Under the pieces are notes generated by a model. That model was not told the origin of the DNA. It made no database searches and saw nothing but the letters and a program-made list of their open reading frames with translations. DNA of 64,000 nt. Source: Geothrix sp. (GTDB taxonomy: Bacteria > Acidobacteriota > Holophagae > Holophagales > Holophagaceae). Below, one piece after another: positions 1,504-59,005 of the stretch. Position 1 is the stretch's first letter; each line of letters opens with the position of its first letter. A program made the translations under genes and the position numbers. The stretch covers positions 1-64,000 of the forward strand of contig JAGRPP010000031.1 of assembly GCA_019449415.1 (NCBI GenBank), read 5' to 3'.

Positions 1504-3660
1504 CTACCGGCCGAAGCTGGCGGGCAGCTTCATGCCCAGGTTCTTGACGAGGAAGGCCCACTGGTCGGCGCGTTCGGCGATCTGCTTGGCGGTGGGCTTG
1601 CCGGCACCATGACCCGCATTGGTCTCGATGCGGGTGAGCACGGGGGCGGAACCTGCCTGGTCGGCCTGCAGGGTGGCGATGAACTTGTGGCTGTGAGCGG
1701 GCACCACGCGGTCGTCGTGGTCGCCCGTGGTGACGAGCGTCGGGGGGTACTTCACGCCGGGCTTCAGGTTATGAAGCGGGGAGTATTTGATGAGGTTGGC
1801 GAAGCCCTCGGGGGTGTCGCTGGACATGTAGTCGCTCTTCCACATCCACCCGATGGTGAAGGTGTGGTACCGCAGCATGTCCATGACGCCCACGGCCGGC
1901 AACGCTGCGCCGAAGAGGTCCGGTCGCTGAGTCATGCAGGCGCCCACCAGCAGGCCGCCATTGGAGCCGCCGTGGATGGCGAGCTTGGGGGTGCTGGTGT
2001 ATTTCTCCTTGATGAGCCACTCGCCCGCGGCGATGAAGTCGTCGAAGACATTCTGTTTCGTCTCCCGCCGGCCCGCTTCCCACCAGGTCTTCCCGTACTC
2101 GCTGCCGCCCCGCAGGCAGGCCACGGCGTAGACGCCGCCCATCTCCATCCAGACCTGGGCCACGGGGGAGTAGTTGGGGGACTGGGCGATGTTGAAGCCG
2201 CCGTAGGCGTAGAGCAGCGTGGGGTTGGTGCCGTCCAGCTTCAGCCCCTTCTTGTAGGCCAGGAACATCGGCACTTTCGTCCCGTCCTTGCTGGGGTAGA
2301 AGACCTCCTTGACCTCGAAGTCCGTGGGCTTGATGTCCACCTTGGGCTGACGGAACACGCTGCTCGTCCCCGTCTTCAGGTCGTAGCGGTAGAGGGTGGG
2401 CGGCTGATTGTACGAGGTGAAGGTGTAGAAGGTCTCGGTGTCCTGGCGGCGACCGTTGAAGCCGCTGAGGTTGCCCAGGCCCCCGGCCTTGATCTCCTTG
2501 AGGAAGCGGCCCTTCAGGTCATAGAGCTTCACGATGTTGAGGGCATCGATCTTCCAGGTGATGGCGAAGGTGTTGCCGAAGAGATCCGCCGCCGCCAGGA
2601 CATCCCGCCCCTTCCCTTCGGGGATGAGGTCCTTCCAGGCCTTCGGCTGCGGATCCTTGAGGTCCACGGCCACGATCCGATGGCGCGGCGCACCGGCATC
2701 GGTGTGCACATAGAAGGTGTCGCCGTCGTTGCCCAGGATGGCGTAGGCGCCATCGTACTGGTTGAACAGGGGAACGACAGGGCTGCCGGCCTTCCGGAGG
2801 TCCTTCAGGAAGACGCGGTTCTTCCGCTCGGTGCCCTGGCGCTGGGAGATCACCAGCCAGTGACCGTCATCGGTCACGGCGGCGCCGAACCCCCAGTCCG
2901 GCTGATCGGGGCGCTCATAGATCACGGCGTCCTTCTCGACGGGATCACCCAGCTTGTGGAAGAACAGCTTCTGGTTCTTGTAGACGGCAGTGAGGGCTTT
3001 GCCGGCCTCCACCTTCGGATAGTCGGTGTAGTAGAAGCCACTGCCATCCTTCGCCCAGGCATTCACGCCCAGACGCCCGGCCGGGAAGGCATCCGGCAGG
3101 TCCTCCCCCGTGGCTACCTTGCGCACCTTCCAGGTGCTCACATCGGACCCGCCCTTGGACAGGCTGTAGGCCACGAACGCACCATCCTCGCTGAAGCGCA
3201 TGCCCCCGAGGGAGACGGTGCCGTCCTTGCTCAAGGCATTGGGATCGAAGAACACCCGGCCCTTCTCCTCCAGGCGTTCCGTGAGGTAGACCGCGGCCTG
3301 GTTCTGGAGCCCCGAGTTGTAGGAATAGATGTAGTACTTTCCGTGCTTGCTGGGCGCGCCGTACTTCTCGTAGTTCCAGAGGTGCGTCATCCGCGTCTCG
3401 ATGGCCTTCCGCTCCGGAATCTGCGCGAGGTAGGCCTGGGTCACCTTGTTCTGGGCCTCCACCCAGGCGGCGGTCTCGGCAGAGTGGTCATCCTCCAGCC
3501 AGCGGTAGGGGTCGGCCACTTTGGTGCCGTGGTAGTCGTCCACCACATCGCCCTTGCGGGTGGTGGGATAGGTCAACGGCGCCTGAGACGGGGGCATCTG
3601 GCCCATCAGGGCCGTGGCGGCGAGGGCCAGCAGGCAAGTTCGGGGCAGGGAAAGCGGCAT
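1504..3660 (-). CDS. Prolyl oligopeptidase, S9A family, secreted (copy 1)
   Basis: A 718-residue serine peptidase that cleaves short peptides after proline. Residues 1-27 form a signal peptide (basic start, LLALAATALMG core), so it is probably periplasmic. The N-terminal part (about 30-430) is the seven-bladed propeller that limits substrate size; the C-terminal part is the alpha/beta hydrolase. The triad is visible as Ser566 in GGSNGG, Asp650 in DHDDRVVP and His684 in NAGHGAGKP, close to the spacing of classical prolyl oligopeptidase. The start has a good AGGAGG 8 nt upstream. It lies 69 nt downstream of a close paralogue in the same direction, and the shared architecture suggests tandem duplication. 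Activity on actual substrates is inferred. Confidence 0.95.
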   Translation of the reverse strand: MPLSLPRTCLLALAATALMGQMPPSQAPLTYPTTRKGDVVDDYHGTKVADPYRWLEDDHSAETAAWVEAQNKVTQAYLAQIPERKAIETRMTHLWNYEKYGAPSKHGKYYIYSYNSGLQNQAAVYLTERLEEKGRVFFDPNALSKDGTVSLGGMRFSEDGAFVAYSLSKGGSDVSTWKVRKVATGEDLPDAFPAGRLGVNAWAKDGSGFYYTDYPKVEAGKALTAVYKNQKLFFHKLGDPVEKDAVIYERPDQPDWGFGAAVTDDGHWLVISQRQGTERKNRVFLKDLRKAGSPVVPLFNQYDGAYAILGNDGDTFYVHTDAGAPRHRIVAVDLKDPQPKAWKDLIPEGKGRDVLAAADLFGNTFAITWKIDALNIVKLYDLKGRFLKEIKAGGLGNLSGFNGRRQDTETFYTFTSYNQPPTLYRYDLKTGTSSVFRQPKVDIKPTDFEVKEVFYPSKDGTKVPMFLAYKKGLKLDGTNPTLLYAYGGFNIAQSPNYSPVAQVWMEMGGVYAVACLRGGSEYGKTWWEAGRRETKQNVFDDFIAAGEWLIKEKYTSTPKLAIHGGSNGGLLVGACMTQRPDLFGAALPAVGVMDMLRYHTFTIGWMWKSDYMSSDTPEGFANLIKYSPLHNLKPGVKYPPTLVTTGDHDDRVVPAHSHKFIATLQADQAGSAPVLTRIETNAGHGAGKPTAKQIAERADQWAFLVKNLGMKLPASFGR

Positions 3661-3729
3661 GAAAGGGCCTCCTGAAGGACATGGGGGATGCCCCTCAGGA
3701 TACCTCGTATCACAAGGTTGAAATAGCCC

Positions 3730-5841
3730 TCAGGGCTTCATGCCCAGGTTCTTCACGAGGAAGGCATAGACATCGGCCCGCTCGGCGATGGCCTTGGCGG
3801 TGGGCTTGCCAGCCCCGTGCCCCGCGCTCGTTTCGATGCGGGTGAGGATGGGGGCCGGACCGGCCTGGGCCGCCTGGAGGGTGGCCGTGAACTTGTGGCT
3901 GTGGGCGGGCACCACCCGGTCATCGTGATCGCCGGTGGTCACCAGCGTCGGCGGATACTTCACGCCGGGCTTGATGGTGTGCAGGGGCGAATACTTCATG
4001 AGGGTCTCGAAGCCCTCCTTGGTCTCCGCGCTGCCGTAGTCGCTCTTCCAGCCCCAGCCCAGGGTGAATTTGTGGAAGCGCAGCATGTCCATGACGCCCA
4101 CCTCGGGCACGGCGGCGCCGAAGAGGTCGGGGCGCTGGGTGAGGCAGGCACCCACCAGCAGGCCGCCGTTGCTCCCGCCGTTGATGGCCAGCTTCGGCGT
4201 GGAAGTGACTTTGTGGGCGATGAGCCACTCGGCGGCCGCGATGAAGTCGTCGAAGACATTCTGCTTCTTGTCCTTCCGTCCGGCGTCGTACCACTCCAGG
4301 CCGTACTCGCCGCCGCCGCGCAGGTTGGGCATGGCAAAGACCCCGCCCATCTCCAGCCAGACCATGCGGGACACGGAGAAGGCCGGGGTCAGCGAGATGT
4401 TGAAGCCACCGTAGCCGTAGAGCAGGGTCGGGTTCTGGCCATCGAGCTTCAGGCCCTTCTTGTGCACCAGGAACATGGGGATCTTCGTGCCGTCCTTGCT
4501 GGGGTAGAAGACCTGCTCCACCTCATAGTCCGCGGGCTTGAAGGCCACCTTCGGCGTGCGGAAGATGGCGCTCTTTCCTGTCTTCAGGTCCAAGCGATAG
4601 ATGGTTCCGGGATAGGCGAAGCTGCCGAAGGTGTAGAAGGTCTCCGTGTCCTCGCGGCGTCCGCCGAAGCCGCCCGCCGTGCCCAGCGCCGGCAGGGCCA
4701 GGGTGCCCGTCTTCTTGCCCTTGAGGTCGTAGAACTCCACGGCGGAGTGGGCATCCCGCATCCAGGTGGCCACGAAGCGGCCCCCCACCAGCGACACGGA
4801 TTCCAGCACATCCTTGCCCTTGGCCTGGGGGATGATCTCGGTCCACTGGGAGGGATCGGCCTGGCCCTTCCGGATGGCCACCAGGCGGTTGCGCGGCGCG
4901 CCCTGGTTGGTGGTCACGAAAAAGCGGTCGCCCTCGTTGTCCACCACCCCGTAGGACGCGTCCATGCGGTCCAGGAAAGGCTCCACGGGGCTGCCGGGCC
5001 GGGTCAGATCCTTGAGGAACACGCTGGTCTCGGGGTTCGTCCCCTTGCTGCCGTAGATGACCAGCCAGCGGCCATCCTCCGTCACGGACCCGCCCAGGTA
5101 CCACTCGGGCTGGTCGGGGCGCTGGTAGATGAGGACATCCTCCGTCTGGGGCGTGCCCAGCTTGTGGAAACAGAGCATGTGGTTGTTGTTCACGCCGGTG
5201 AGCGCCCCGCCTTCTTTGGGCGCCTCGTAGCGGCTGTAGAAGAAGCCGCTGCCATCCTTCAGCCAAGAGGCCCCGCTGGCCTTGGACCAGCGGATGTCGT
5301 CGGCCAGGTCCTGGCCCGTGGCCACATCGCGGACCTTCCAGGTCTGCCAGTCGGAGCCGGCCACGGAGATGGAATACGCCATGAGGCGGCCATCCTCGGT
5401 GAAGCTCGCGCCGCTGAGGGCCACGGTGCCGTCCTTGCTCAGGGCGTTGGGATCGAGCAGCACCCGGCCCTTGGCCTTGGGATCCTCAGTGACGAACAGG
5501 ACGGACTGGTTCTGGAGCCCCGTGTTGTAGGAGTAGAAGTACCGCTTGCCGCGCTTGAAGGGCGCGCTGAACTTCTCGAAGTCCCAGAGGCGGGTGATGC
5601 GCTCCTGGATCTTCGCCCGCGCGGGGATCTGCTCCAGGTAGCCAAAGGTCACCTTGTTCTGGGCCTCCACCCAGGCTTTGGTTTCCGCGCTGTTGTCATC
5701 CTCAAGCCAGCGGTAGGGATCGGCCACCTTCGTGCCGAAGAAATCCTCCACGACTTCGGCCTTCCGGGTGGCCGGATAGGTCAGGGGGGTCTGGGCGGAC
5801 AGGGCGGTGGTGATGGCGAGGGCCATGGGAAGAATCCTCAT
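3730..5841 (-). CDS. Prolyl oligopeptidase, S9A family, secreted (copy 2)
   Basis: A 703-residue paralogue of the downstream peptidase. The open frame extends upstream to 6021, but I place the start at ATG 5841: it begins a clean signal peptide ([17 protein letters not shown]) and has CGGAGG 7 nt upstream. The longer version would overlap phoH. Ser557 (GGSNGG), Asp641 (DHDDRVVP) and His675 (SAGHGAGKP) form the triad. The propeller occupies roughly residues 25-420. The enzyme should cleave prolyl bonds in oligopeptides in the periplasm. With copy 1 and a DPP IV-like peptidase at the far end of the window it points to growth on peptides. Confidence 0.95.
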
Positions 5842-35885: not shown

Positions 35886-37223
35886 ATGGCCTTTGATGTC
35901 GTCATGCCCCAGATGGGCGAGAGCATTGCGGAAGCCACCGTATTGAAGTGGCACAAGAAGGCCGGTGATGTGATCGCCAAGGACGAGACGCTCTACGAGA
36001 TCAGCACCGACAAGGTAGACGCGGAGATCCCGGCCCCCGCCGCCGGCACCCTGCTGGAGATCCTCGTGGAAGTCAACGCCACGGTCCCCGTGGGCACCGT
36101 GGTGGCTCGCATCGGCGCGGCCTCCGAGAAGCCCGCGGGTGCCGCCACCGCTCCGGTTGCTTCCGCGCCCGTGGCCGCCCCGGTCTCCGCCGCCACGGCG
36201 CCCCTGGCCGACGAGGACGACAACAGCCTCGAGGGCCGCCTCCGGACCAAGAGCAGCCCCCTCGTCCGCGAGATGGCCAAGCAGCACGGCGTGGACCTCG
36301 CCCGGATCCAGGGCACGGGCCAGGCTGGGCGCGTCACCAAGGAGGACATGGAAGCGCATCTGGCCAAGGGCCCCTCGGCATCCTCCGCTGCTCCCGCCCC
36401 AGCGGCCATCGCGCCGGTCCTGCCCGCGGTTCATGATCCTTCCGCGCCCACGCTGGGCATCAGCCCTGCCCTCTCGGTGGCCCCCGCCCCCGCCATGCCG
36501 GCCTTCGCCGCGGGCGAGCGGGTGAAGGTCGAGCCCATGAGCCGCATGCGCAAGATCATCGCCGACAACATGGTGGCCAGCCGGCGCACCTCGGCCCACG
36601 CCTACACGATCTTCGAGATCGACATGACCCATGTGGCCCAGCTGCGCAACAAGCACAAGAAGGCCTTCGAGGCCCAGTTCGGCACGAAGCTCAGCTTCAT
36701 GCCGTTCGTGATGATGGCCGCCTGCAAAGCGCTGCGCGCCTATCCCATCGCCAACGCCTCCGTGGACGGCGACAACATCGTCTACAAGCAGGACATCAAC
36801 CTCGGCATCGCCGTGAGCCTGGATTGGGGCCTCATCGTCCCGGTGGTGAAGAACGCCGACATGATGAACCTGGGCGGCCTGGCCCGCAGCCTCAACGACC
36901 TGGCCGAGCGCGCGCGCACCAAGCAGCTCAAGCCCGACGAGATCGGCGGTGGCACCTTCACCATCACCAACCCCGGCGTCTACGGCGACACCTTCGGCCT
37001 GCCCATCATCAACCAGCCCCAGGCCGCCATCCAGGGCGTGGGCGCCATCGTGAAGCGGCCCGTGGTCATCACCGGCCCTGACGGCACCGACTTCATCGCC
37101 ATCCGCCAGATGATGTTCAGCAGCCTCGGCTTCGACCACCGGATCGTCGACGGGGCCACCGCCGACCTGTTCATGGCCTTCGCCAAGAAGGAGCTGGAGA
37201 CTTCCACCTTCGGGTTGGAATAG
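35886..37223 (+). CDS. Dihydrolipoamide acyltransferase (E2) of a 2-oxoacid dehydrogenase complex
   Basis: A 445-residue E2. One lipoyl domain spans residues 1-77, with Lys43 in STDKVDAEIP as the lipoylation site. An alanine/proline linker follows, then the small E1/E3-binding domain at about 113-150 (SSPLVREMAKQHGVDLARIQGTGQAGRVTKEDMEAHL). The catalytic domain begins near 210, with His418 and Asp422 in FDHRIVDGA. The substrate (2-oxoglutarate, pyruvate or branched-chain acids) cannot be told; no E1 or E3 gene is adjacent. Oddly, the last 12 codons and stop (37185-37223) recur downstream at 37300-37338. Confidence 0.93.
   Translation: MAFDVVMPQMGESIAEATVLKWHKKAGDVIAKDETLYEISTDKVDAEIPAPAAGTLLEILVEVNATVPVGTVVARIGAASEKPAGAATAPVASAPVAAPVSAATAPLADEDDNSLEGRLRTKSSPLVREMAKQHGVDLARIQGTGQAGRVTKEDMEAHLAKGPSASSAAPAPAAIAPVLPAVHDPSAPTLGISPALSVAPAPAMPAFAAGERVKVEPMSRMRKIIADNMVASRRTSAHAYTIFEIDMTHVAQLRNKHKKAFEAQFGTKLSFMPFVMMAACKALRAYPIANASVDGDNIVYKQDINLGIAVSLDWGLIVPVVKNADMMNLGGLARSLNDLAERARTKQLKPDEIGGGTFTITNPGVYGDTFGLPIINQPQAAIQGVGAIVKRPVVITGPDGTDFIAIRQMMFSSLGFDHRIVDGATADLFMAFAKKELETSTFGLE
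37185..37223 (+). repeat. Tail repeat A, copy 1 (end of the E2 gene)
   Basis: The 39 nt that encode KKELETSTFGLE and the TAG stop. They recur at 37300-37338 with two differences, GAG to GAA and ACT to ACC, both synonymous. This copy is the working 3' end of the gene. Confidence 0.9.
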
Positions 37224-37266
37224 CGGCCGCGCGATCCACCCATTAGGACCAGGAGAGAAGCCTCGC

Positions 37267-37295
37267 GTATCGCCCCTCGCTTTTGGGGGCGATAC
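37267..37295. repeat. Stem-loop between the two tail copies of the E2 gene
   Basis: GTATCGCCCC (37267-37276) pairs perfectly with GGGGCGATAC (37286-37295) over a 9-nt loop. It sits just in front of tail copy 2. There is no T-run directly after it, so simple terminator function is doubtful. Confidence 0.75.
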
Positions 37296-37299
37296 CGAG

Positions 37300-37338
37300 A
37301 AGAAGGAACTGGAGACCTCCACCTTCGGGTTGGAATAG
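37300..37338 (+). repeat. Tail repeat A, copy 2 (displaced end of an E2 gene)
   Basis: This copy matches 37 of 39 nt of the E2 gene end, including the stop, but lies in a different frame relative to the gene and has no start of its own. The differences are only synonymous, so it reads as the end of another allele of the same gene. Confidence 0.88.
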
Positions 37339-57537: not shown

Positions 57538-58848
57538 ATGACCGACCTCGCCGCTCTCTACCTCACCCACATCGCCGACCGCCAGCGCACTGCCGCCGAG
57601 GCCCTGGCCGAGACGGGCTTCGATGCCCTGATCATCTCCAGCGGGAAGGTCTACACGCACTTCGCCGACGATCAGGACGCCCCCTTCCACCCCGTTCCCC
57701 ACTTCGCCCACTGGTGCCCCATGGCGGGACCGCACCACCTCCTCGTGATCCGTCCCGGCCAGAAGCCGCGGCTCATCCGCTACGCCCCCGAGGATTTCTG
57801 GTACGAGCAGGCCCCCTTGGGGAACCCCTTCTGGGCGTCGGCCTTCGAGCTCGAAGAGGCGGGCACGGTCGACGAGGTCTGGAAGCTCCTGGGAAACCCC
57901 ACCCGGGCGGCCTACATCGGCAACGAGACCGACCGCGCCGGAGCGGCCGGCCTGGAGGTCAATCCAGCCGGACTCACGGCCCATCTGGATTGGTACCGCA
58001 CCACCAAGTCGGCCTACGAGGTTCAGAGCATCGAGGAAGCCACGGTGCTGGCCGCCCGGGGCCACCTGGCCGCCAAGGCCGCCTTCCTCGCCGGCGCCAG
58101 TGAACTCGAGATCCACCACGCCTATGTCCAGGCCGTGGGCATCGTGGATCATGAGCTGCCCTACGGCAGCATCGTGGCCCTCAACGAGAAGGGCGCCACC
58201 CTCCACTACGAGGGCAAGCGCACCCTGAAGAACGGCTTCGTCATGCTCATCGACGCCGGCGCCCAGGTCCGAGGCTATGCCTCCGACATCACCCGCACCG
58301 TGGCCGCGCCCCACTGCGACAGCCGCTTCGCGGCTCTGGTGGACGGCATGGAGAAGCTCGAGCTCCAGCTCTGCGATCTGGTGAAGCCGGGGCTGCCCTA
58401 CGGTGACCTGCATCATCAGGGGCATCTGGCCATCGCGGGTCTGCTGAAGGATCACGGCCTCTTGAACGCAAGCCCCGAGGAGGCCGTGGAGAAGGGCTAT
58501 AGCCGTCCCTTCTTCCCCCACGGCCTGGGTCATCACCTGGGCATCCAGGTGCATGATGTGGCCGGCCGGCAGGGCGGGCCGGACGGCACGGTCGCGCCCC
58601 CGCCGGCCCAGCATCCCACCCTGCGCACCACCCGCACCATCGATGCGGGGCAGGTCTTCACCGTGGAGCCGGGCCTCTACTTCATTCCCATGCTGCTCCG
58701 TCCCTTCCGCACGAACGAGCACAAGACCGCCTTCAACTGGAAGCTCATCGACGAACTCACCCCCTGCGGCGGGATCCGCATCGAGGACAACCTTCTGGTG
58801 ACCGCCAACGGGCATCGCAATCTCACCCGGCCGCATCTCCCCAACTGA
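57538..58848 (+). CDS. pepQ: Xaa-Pro dipeptidase (M24B prolidase, PepQ-like)
   Basis: A 436-residue metallopeptidase that splits dipeptides ending in proline. The pita-bread domain has the dinuclear metal ligands Asp in MLIDAGAQV and GYASDITRTV, His in FFPHGLGHHLGIQVHD, Glu in FTVEPGLYF and Glu in GIRIEDNLLV. No signal peptide is present, so it is cytoplasmic and could finish peptides made by the secreted prolyl peptidases in this window. AAGGA lies 7 nt upstream of ATG 57538. The last 23 codons and stop are repeated at 58935-59005. Confidence 0.93.
   Translation: MTDLAALYLTHIADRQRTAAEALAETGFDALIISSGKVYTHFADDQDAPFHPVPHFAHWCPMAGPHHLLVIRPGQKPRLIRYAPEDFWYEQAPLGNPFWASAFELEEAGTVDEVWKLLGNPTRAAYIGNETDRAGAAGLEVNPAGLTAHLDWYRTTKSAYEVQSIEEATVLAARGHLAAKAAFLAGASELEIHHAYVQAVGIVDHELPYGSIVALNEKGATLHYEGKRTLKNGFVMLIDAGAQVRGYASDITRTVAAPHCDSRFAALVDGMEKLELQLCDLVKPGLPYGDLHHQGHLAIAGLLKDHGLLNASPEEAVEKGYSRPFFPHGLGHHLGIQVHDVAGRQGGPDGTVAPPPAQHPTLRTTRTIDAGQVFTVEPGLYFIPMLLRPFRTNEHKTAFNWKLIDELTPCGGIRIEDNLLVTANGHRNLTRPHLPN
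58778..58848 (+). repeat. Tail repeat B, copy 1 (end of the prolidase gene)
   Basis: The 71 nt that end the gene and encode its last metal ligand Glu. They recur at 58935-59005 with two differences, CTT to CTG and CTC to CTG, both silent leucine changes. Confidence 0.92.
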
Positions 58849-58875
58849 GCTGCGGATCCGGACTACCCCCCGATC

Positions 58876-58896
58876 GCACAGCGCCCCGCGCTGTGC
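58876..58896. repeat. Stem-loop between the two tail copies of the prolidase gene
   Basis: GCACAGCGC pairs perfectly with GCGCTGTGC over a CCC loop, a 9-bp stem. It lies 27 nt after the true stop and 38 nt before tail copy 2. Confidence 0.78.
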
Positions 58897-58934
58897 TCCC
58901 ACTCAGCCTCCGGCTTCGTGGAGGGGGCCCCGTT

Positions 58935-59005
58935 GCATCGAGGACAACCTGCTGGTGACCGCCAACGGGCATCGCAATCTCACCCGGCCGCATCTGCCCA
59001 ACTGA
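58935..59005 (+). repeat. Tail repeat B, copy 2 (displaced end of a prolidase gene)
   Basis: This copy matches 69 of 71 nt of the prolidase 3' end with its stop codon, but has no start codon or body. Since both differences are silent, it reads as the end of another allele. No separate product is expected. Confidence 0.9.

Follow-up and report, generated by a model that had tools for sequence, protein, structure and literature searches.

We found that the repeated 3' end of a prolidase gene in Geothrix encloses a copy of a dispersed, structured DNA element that is shared across the family Holophagaceae. We consider it fairly probable that the repeat reflects one insertion of this small, non-autonomous element, which occupies the ends of genes and spreads between strains by homologous recombination. 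The window (the whole 64,000-nt stretch of DNA analysed) is contig C17 of the draft genome G000 (2.15 Mb, 64% complete, 31 contigs). The original prediction, which described the prolidase repeat and the hairpin within it, is partly supported by our results; what it missed is that the sequence between the two gene-end copies is a structured element dispersed through the family, that the left flank of this element is an inverted copy of its target, and that, at resolvable loci, the foreign end is on the gene-fused copy and the native one on the displaced copy.

The repeated prolidase gene end

By its domains (PF00557, E 6e-39; PF21216, E 8e-34), the prolidase belongs to the PepQ type of M24 metallopeptidases, and the last 71 nt of its gene recur at a spacing of 157 nt with 69/71 identities (97%). 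A repeat search and a codon comparison confirmed both the repeat and the claim that its two differences, CTT/CTG and CTC/CTG, are silent (all four codons specify Leu). The second copy runs to a TGA stop and, as had been described, lacks a gene body, and the perfect stem and three-nucleotide loop reported between the copies are present in the sequence (Table 1). The duplicated part includes what we take, from knowledge of the family, to be the last metal-binding Glu (R-I-E-D) of the enzyme. The element core between the copies scores 80.4 bits (E 3.4e-18) against a covariance model, and its fold has a z value of -2.2 as DNA.

Table 1. Features of the prolidase locus, in window coordinates
Feature	Position	Strand	Basis
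Complete host gene for the PepQ-type prolidase (M24 peptidase)	57538..58848	+	ORF and domain matches
Target stretch GGATCCGCA, spanning the start of the duplication; the arm is its reverse complement	58772..58780	+	
Gene-end copy 1, joined to the prolidase gene body	58778..58848	+	Direct-repeat comparison
Arm TGCGGATCC, reverse complement of 58772-58780	58851..58859	+	
74-nt element core with a T-shaped fold made of an outer stem and two hairpins	58860..58933	+	Covariance model
Hairpin P2 within the core, perfect 9-bp stem and 3-nt loop, GCACAGCGC-CCC-GCGCTGTGC	58876..58896	+	Sequence; compensatory changes
Truncated gene-end copy 2; the original flank lies just downstream	58935..59005	+	Direct-repeat comparison, relatives

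Five of about 43 genomes of the genus carry the element at the prolidase gene, and the others inspected are empty there, save for decayed or seemingly arm-only cases. In G010, a complete, one-contig genome of the same species, the locus reads tail-core-tail-core-tail (three tails and two cores), and in G020 (2 contigs, 100% complete) it reads tail-core-tail. The repeated tails in these two genomes dispose of the concern that the second copy might be an assembly artefact. Chance is ruled out as the source of this arrangement, since four more genomes have it at the prolidase gene and almost all other core copies are enclosed likewise. G021 holds a decayed copy of the element, and the prolidase sites of G008, G004 and G012 look, from their sequences, as if they keep the arm. 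The number of units varies from one in G000 to two in G010, and the empty sites of relatives have a single tail, both of which bear out the proposal that recombination between the copies leaves the enzyme intact. Since copy 2 has decayed in G049 and G021, it probably experiences no selection of its own; elsewhere the two copies vary in step, the pattern that expanding and contracting tandem repeats should give.

Further copies of the intervening sequence, for which a genome-wide search had been suggested, are indeed present in G000: one downstream of recR and one at an alpha/beta hydrolase gene (5' end), with the gene end duplicated both times. After recR copy 2, the sequence at L003 1657-1779 is unlike the flank that G010, G020 and G006 have in common and reaches the end of the contig; it is possibly an insertion sequence.

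A structured element at gene ends in the Holophagaceae

A covariance model built from 19 cores detected the element in 62/77 genomes of the Holophagaceae (the Geothrix family), in 9/11 genera and at 1-35 copies each. At typical loci the core is ~74-79 nt long and adopts the conserved T-shaped fold; 13 of the 20 base pairs in the 19-core alignment have changes on both sides, with hardly any G-U pairs, and within a single locus, miaB, 6 of the 9 pairs of the main hairpin have changed on both sides with base pairing retained. An exact core pattern, run over one genome per species for 84,980 species, matched 31 stretches whose titles name Geothrix, Holophagaceae or Acidobacteria, with Geothrix terrae, G. 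paludis, G. limicola, G. fermentans and G. campi among the isolates, and no other family was matched in that set.

Core identity exceeded that of the adjoining gene at 8/9 loci compared, although the prolidase gene value in this comparison is distorted by an array offset, and for that locus a dedicated comparison is to be used. There the cores are 96-100% identical between genomes, while in distant pairs the gene windows are mostly 70-87% identical and the downstream DNA is 44-49% identical. Such high similarity of the core between species, despite diverged genes and downstream DNA, argues for an insertion element, as do the paired base changes that keep the stem and the variable number of units; strong core conservation could also reflect a function for the host. 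Around the prolidase copy, Rfam gave no match at E 1, a tRNA gene was the sole Rfam match on six other loci, and no terminator-like site was found at the element. Copies of the element sit at the ends of G000 contigs (C12:63-126, C31:133-196 and C23:504-572) and are thus a probable cause of breaks in short-read assemblies.

Of the about 125 element copies examined, 110, at 36 separate loci, lie between direct repeats of 22-220 nt of host DNA, and the remaining copies, about 15, have no duplication. Dispersal through most of the family and duplications around most copies favour the reading that this is an insertion element. At duplicated loci the copy joined to the gene body is complete and the other is partial, copy 2 starts at the 3' end of the core (within a few nucleotides at most loci), and n cores are accompanied by n+1 tails. 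By median, the outer end of the duplication lies at most 12 nt from a stop or start codon at 20/21 protein loci, an upper estimate of the precision because the reading frame was picked with the duplication end in view, which favours small distances. Several alignments nevertheless show at first hand that the duplication breaks off sharply at the stop codon.

The host genes include those for prolidase, RecR, MiaB, superoxide dismutase (sod), a thioesterase, YebC, MutL and ETF-alpha, a radical SAM gene like queE and a tyrosine recombinase gene like xerC/D (the names recR, queE and xerC/D are our assignments, from sequence and family knowledge). The 3' end of a tRNA-Thr gene and the 5' end of a tRNA-Arg gene are used too. 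The element occurs at either end of a gene and on either strand, and its core is flipped relative to the gene at some loci (cluster C9). At the 5' end of miaB (L042), inspection by eye suggests that an ORF beginning at the outer start crosses the core, with its stop codon overlapping the real start codon (ATGA).

Proposed insertion and spread, and alternative explanations

Empty sites in relatives are single-copy, with the tail running straight into the flank. The hydrolase gene is empty in G010, G020 and G006, and recR is empty in G010 and G006; recR in G020 has a carrier-type end fused to the native end, which we read as a deletion scar. At both genes, G000 has a copy 1 whose outer part is unlike the native end and a copy 2 that matches it. 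Among four species, the two hydrolase copies within a genome are near-identical close to the gene body; towards the start codon they tend to part, copy 1 resembling the copies 1 of other genomes (G000, G049 and G004 being the clearest cases) and copy 2 resembling native ends. Base differences at L180 reach about 12 nt upstream of the junction. A foreign end on the gene-fused copy and a native end on the outer copy are thus present at two or three loci; prolidase has no close empty relative among the genomes compared, and either of its copies may be the native one. The empty sites, the foreign copy 1 and native copy 2, the scar in G020 and the separation of carrier-type from native ends across four species all argue for insertion, and the simplest reading of these sequences is that the unit moves between strains by homologous recombination, which is possible because both flanks of the unit match the empty allele.

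Directly 5' of the core lies an arm whose reverse complement is the target sequence at the point where the duplication starts, as at prolidase (Table 1) and recR (CCCCATCGGC and GCCGATGGGG). Arm and target share an exact run of at least 7 nt, in similar registers, at 13/29 loci, compared with 2.6% when arms are set against other loci; 16/29 loci lack an arm match of this length. The arm and target of miaB vary together between genera (CTGGGGATGCC with GGCATCCCCAG in g6). We also considered an arm that pairs solely with copy 2 and dropped this idea, as the intact target matches the arm better. Complementarity of this kind, and duplications that end at gene ends, are further reasons to regard the repeat as the product of an inserting element.

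The layout is gene body, gene end (copy 1), inverted-target arm, core, gene end (copy 2) and flank. We infer the following course of events. The host would survive because copy 1 supplies the whole gene end, and copy 2 would be the gene's own former end, displaced outward. Entry at a new locus may involve joining of the core 3' end to the target and copying of a target stretch in inverted orientation, presumably with a helper acting in trans. Once in place, the unit would be inherited at that locus, would multiply or disappear through recombination between direct repeats, and would pass from strain to strain by ordinary homologous recombination. No insertion into a new locus was caught in progress among the genomes compared, and many element loci are old and occur in more than one genus, so present mobility to new sites is at most a possibility. 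The idea of a long target duplication that is retained only if the gene survives does not, by itself, account for a duplication that goes no further than the gene end; that limit could be explained by decay of non-coding DNA after an old insertion, or by a donor with unrelated downstream DNA.

A search for a helper gave no candidate. RAYT (PF01797, Y1_Tnp) is encoded in 13/77 genomes and reverse transcriptase (PF00078) in 23/77, and both are absent from the element carriers G000, G010, G017, G020 and G049; neither co-occurs with the element across the 77 genomes, and both were ruled out as partners. Nor did we find a transposase that tracks the element, a larger version with cargo between the core and a distant copy 2 (six loci of 12-20 kb), or an integrase or kilobase cargo at the loci examined. 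Phages and plasmids gave no match to the element; seven viral contigs matched by a looser pattern fail the covariance model. That no transposase, RAYT or reverse transcriptase follows the element, and that some copies have no duplication, counts against the insertion-element reading.

Alternatively, the repeat could be a replication accident, in which a stable hairpin at a gene end (any repeat would serve) provokes polymerase fold-back and template switching, leaving an inverted arm and, as a by-product, a duplicated end. Such an event would account for the match of the arm to the inverted local target, for paired Watson-Crick changes with hardly any G-U (as in hairpin correction by template switching) and for the same layout around an unrelated hairpin family at some loci but not others, yet the n+1 tails and the tail-to-flank empty sites look like insertion and the core meets copy 2 exactly at independent loci, and we judge it unlikely. 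Arm complementarity could instead mean guided insertion, or homing, in which base pairing of the arm to the target on both sides of the insertion point would guide the joining reaction, together with an enzyme in trans, the element bringing its own version of the gene end. The common register, the joint variation of arm and target at miaB, the use of one junction in different genera and the choice of conserved housekeeping genes as targets all fit; however, no enzyme was found, the arm would need rewriting for each gene, more than half of the loci lack an arm match, and complementarity alone also fits template switching, which together make this explanation doubtful. We are similarly sceptical of a related version, in which a ~75-nt bacterial mobile element acquires, site by site, a new arm matching the target across the insertion point, such that the target programs the insertion and the interrupted gene end is replaced by construction.

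Selection for a regulatory or mRNA-end element of the host, with the gene-end copies as a side effect, would explain why the core is better conserved than adjoining coding DNA, but most relatives lack the element at prolidase, it sits on either strand and at either gene end, and neither a terminator-like site nor an Rfam family was found, making this explanation improbable. The incomplete, fragmented state of the draft and silent differences that resemble strain variation might point to an assembly chimaera of two strains; the same structure in complete and isolate genomes refutes this as the source of the architecture and leaves it a negligible probability.

The insertion-element reading invites comparison with several known systems. 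Integrative elements at the 3' ends of tRNA and other genes insert near the gene end and restore it from element-side sequence, and they carry an integrase and kilobases of cargo; the Holophagaceae element resembles them in gene-end restoration but not in integrase or cargo, neither of which was found. The 178-bp repeats of E. coli tyrT are tandem units of a tRNA gene end and spacer, as in the element, and are not known beyond one locus or to share a dispersed core. Target duplications of MITEs are typically short and of fixed size, unlike the long, variable duplications described here, which end at gene ends. Like the element, MITEs and other small non-autonomous repeats are short, non-coding, dispersed and structured, and are presumably moved in trans (PMC2229807, PMC10969869). 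REP/BIME sequences are small, dispersed, palindromic repeats, mostly beside genes and often in tandem (PMC3733652, PMC2817692), and the element is likewise a short, dispersed, palindromic, multicopy repeat; however, duplicated gene ends do not figure in their definition as given there, and the RAYT-type transposase does not track the element.

Its logic is closest to that of the mobile ORFs of fungal mitochondria, which form hybrid genes in Allomyces (atp6) and Glomus (atp6, atp9, cox2 and nad3): a foreign C-terminal end is fused in phase, the native end is displaced downstream, and phylogeny separates the two (PMC3630166). A foreign end fused to the gene and a displaced native end likewise occur at the hydrolase gene and recR in G000 relative to empty relatives. 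The fungal insert encodes a homing endonuclease and is several hundred nucleotides long (PMC3630166), whereas the element is ~75 nt and has no ORF; lacking an endonuclease, it falls outside that group, and it also differs in residing at many loci of a bacterial chromosome, including 5' ends and tRNA genes. We found no described bacterial case in the open-licence literature. If the insertion-element reading is right, it provides a way for a repeat to settle within housekeeping genes at their edges and leave them functional, phylogenies of gene-end sequence may mislead where native ends have been replaced by foreign ones, and the numerous copies, for which close relatives supply empty sites, offer natural replicates for studying the insertion mechanism.

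A second hairpin family at an E2 gene

The prolidase repeat had been described as the same kind as one at an E2 gene (2-oxoacid dehydrogenase type) in the window. The architecture is indeed equal: at 37185-37338, 39 nt of the gene end are duplicated and both differences are silent. The core between the copies (37262-37299) contains another hairpin, CTCGCGTATCG...CGATACCGAG, which belongs to a different family. This layout is present at the E2 gene in 9/30 genomes of the genus, in tandem in two (L210-L239), and the first core occurs at the same gene in three genomes with a different junction. An exact pattern for the second hairpin matched 58/77 genomes, and its reversed control matched 0; among 20 loci sampled, a repeat of the flanking DNA comes directly after the hairpin at several, while others lack any duplication. 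The second hairpin also lies inside a longer conserved structured repeat, in which roughly 170-430 nt are alike between genomes, without gene-end duplication (L280-L282, L286, L287 and L297). Elsewhere in the window, at 1527-5591, two paralogous stretches 2208 bp apart (74-82% identity) are apparently a tandem gene pair.
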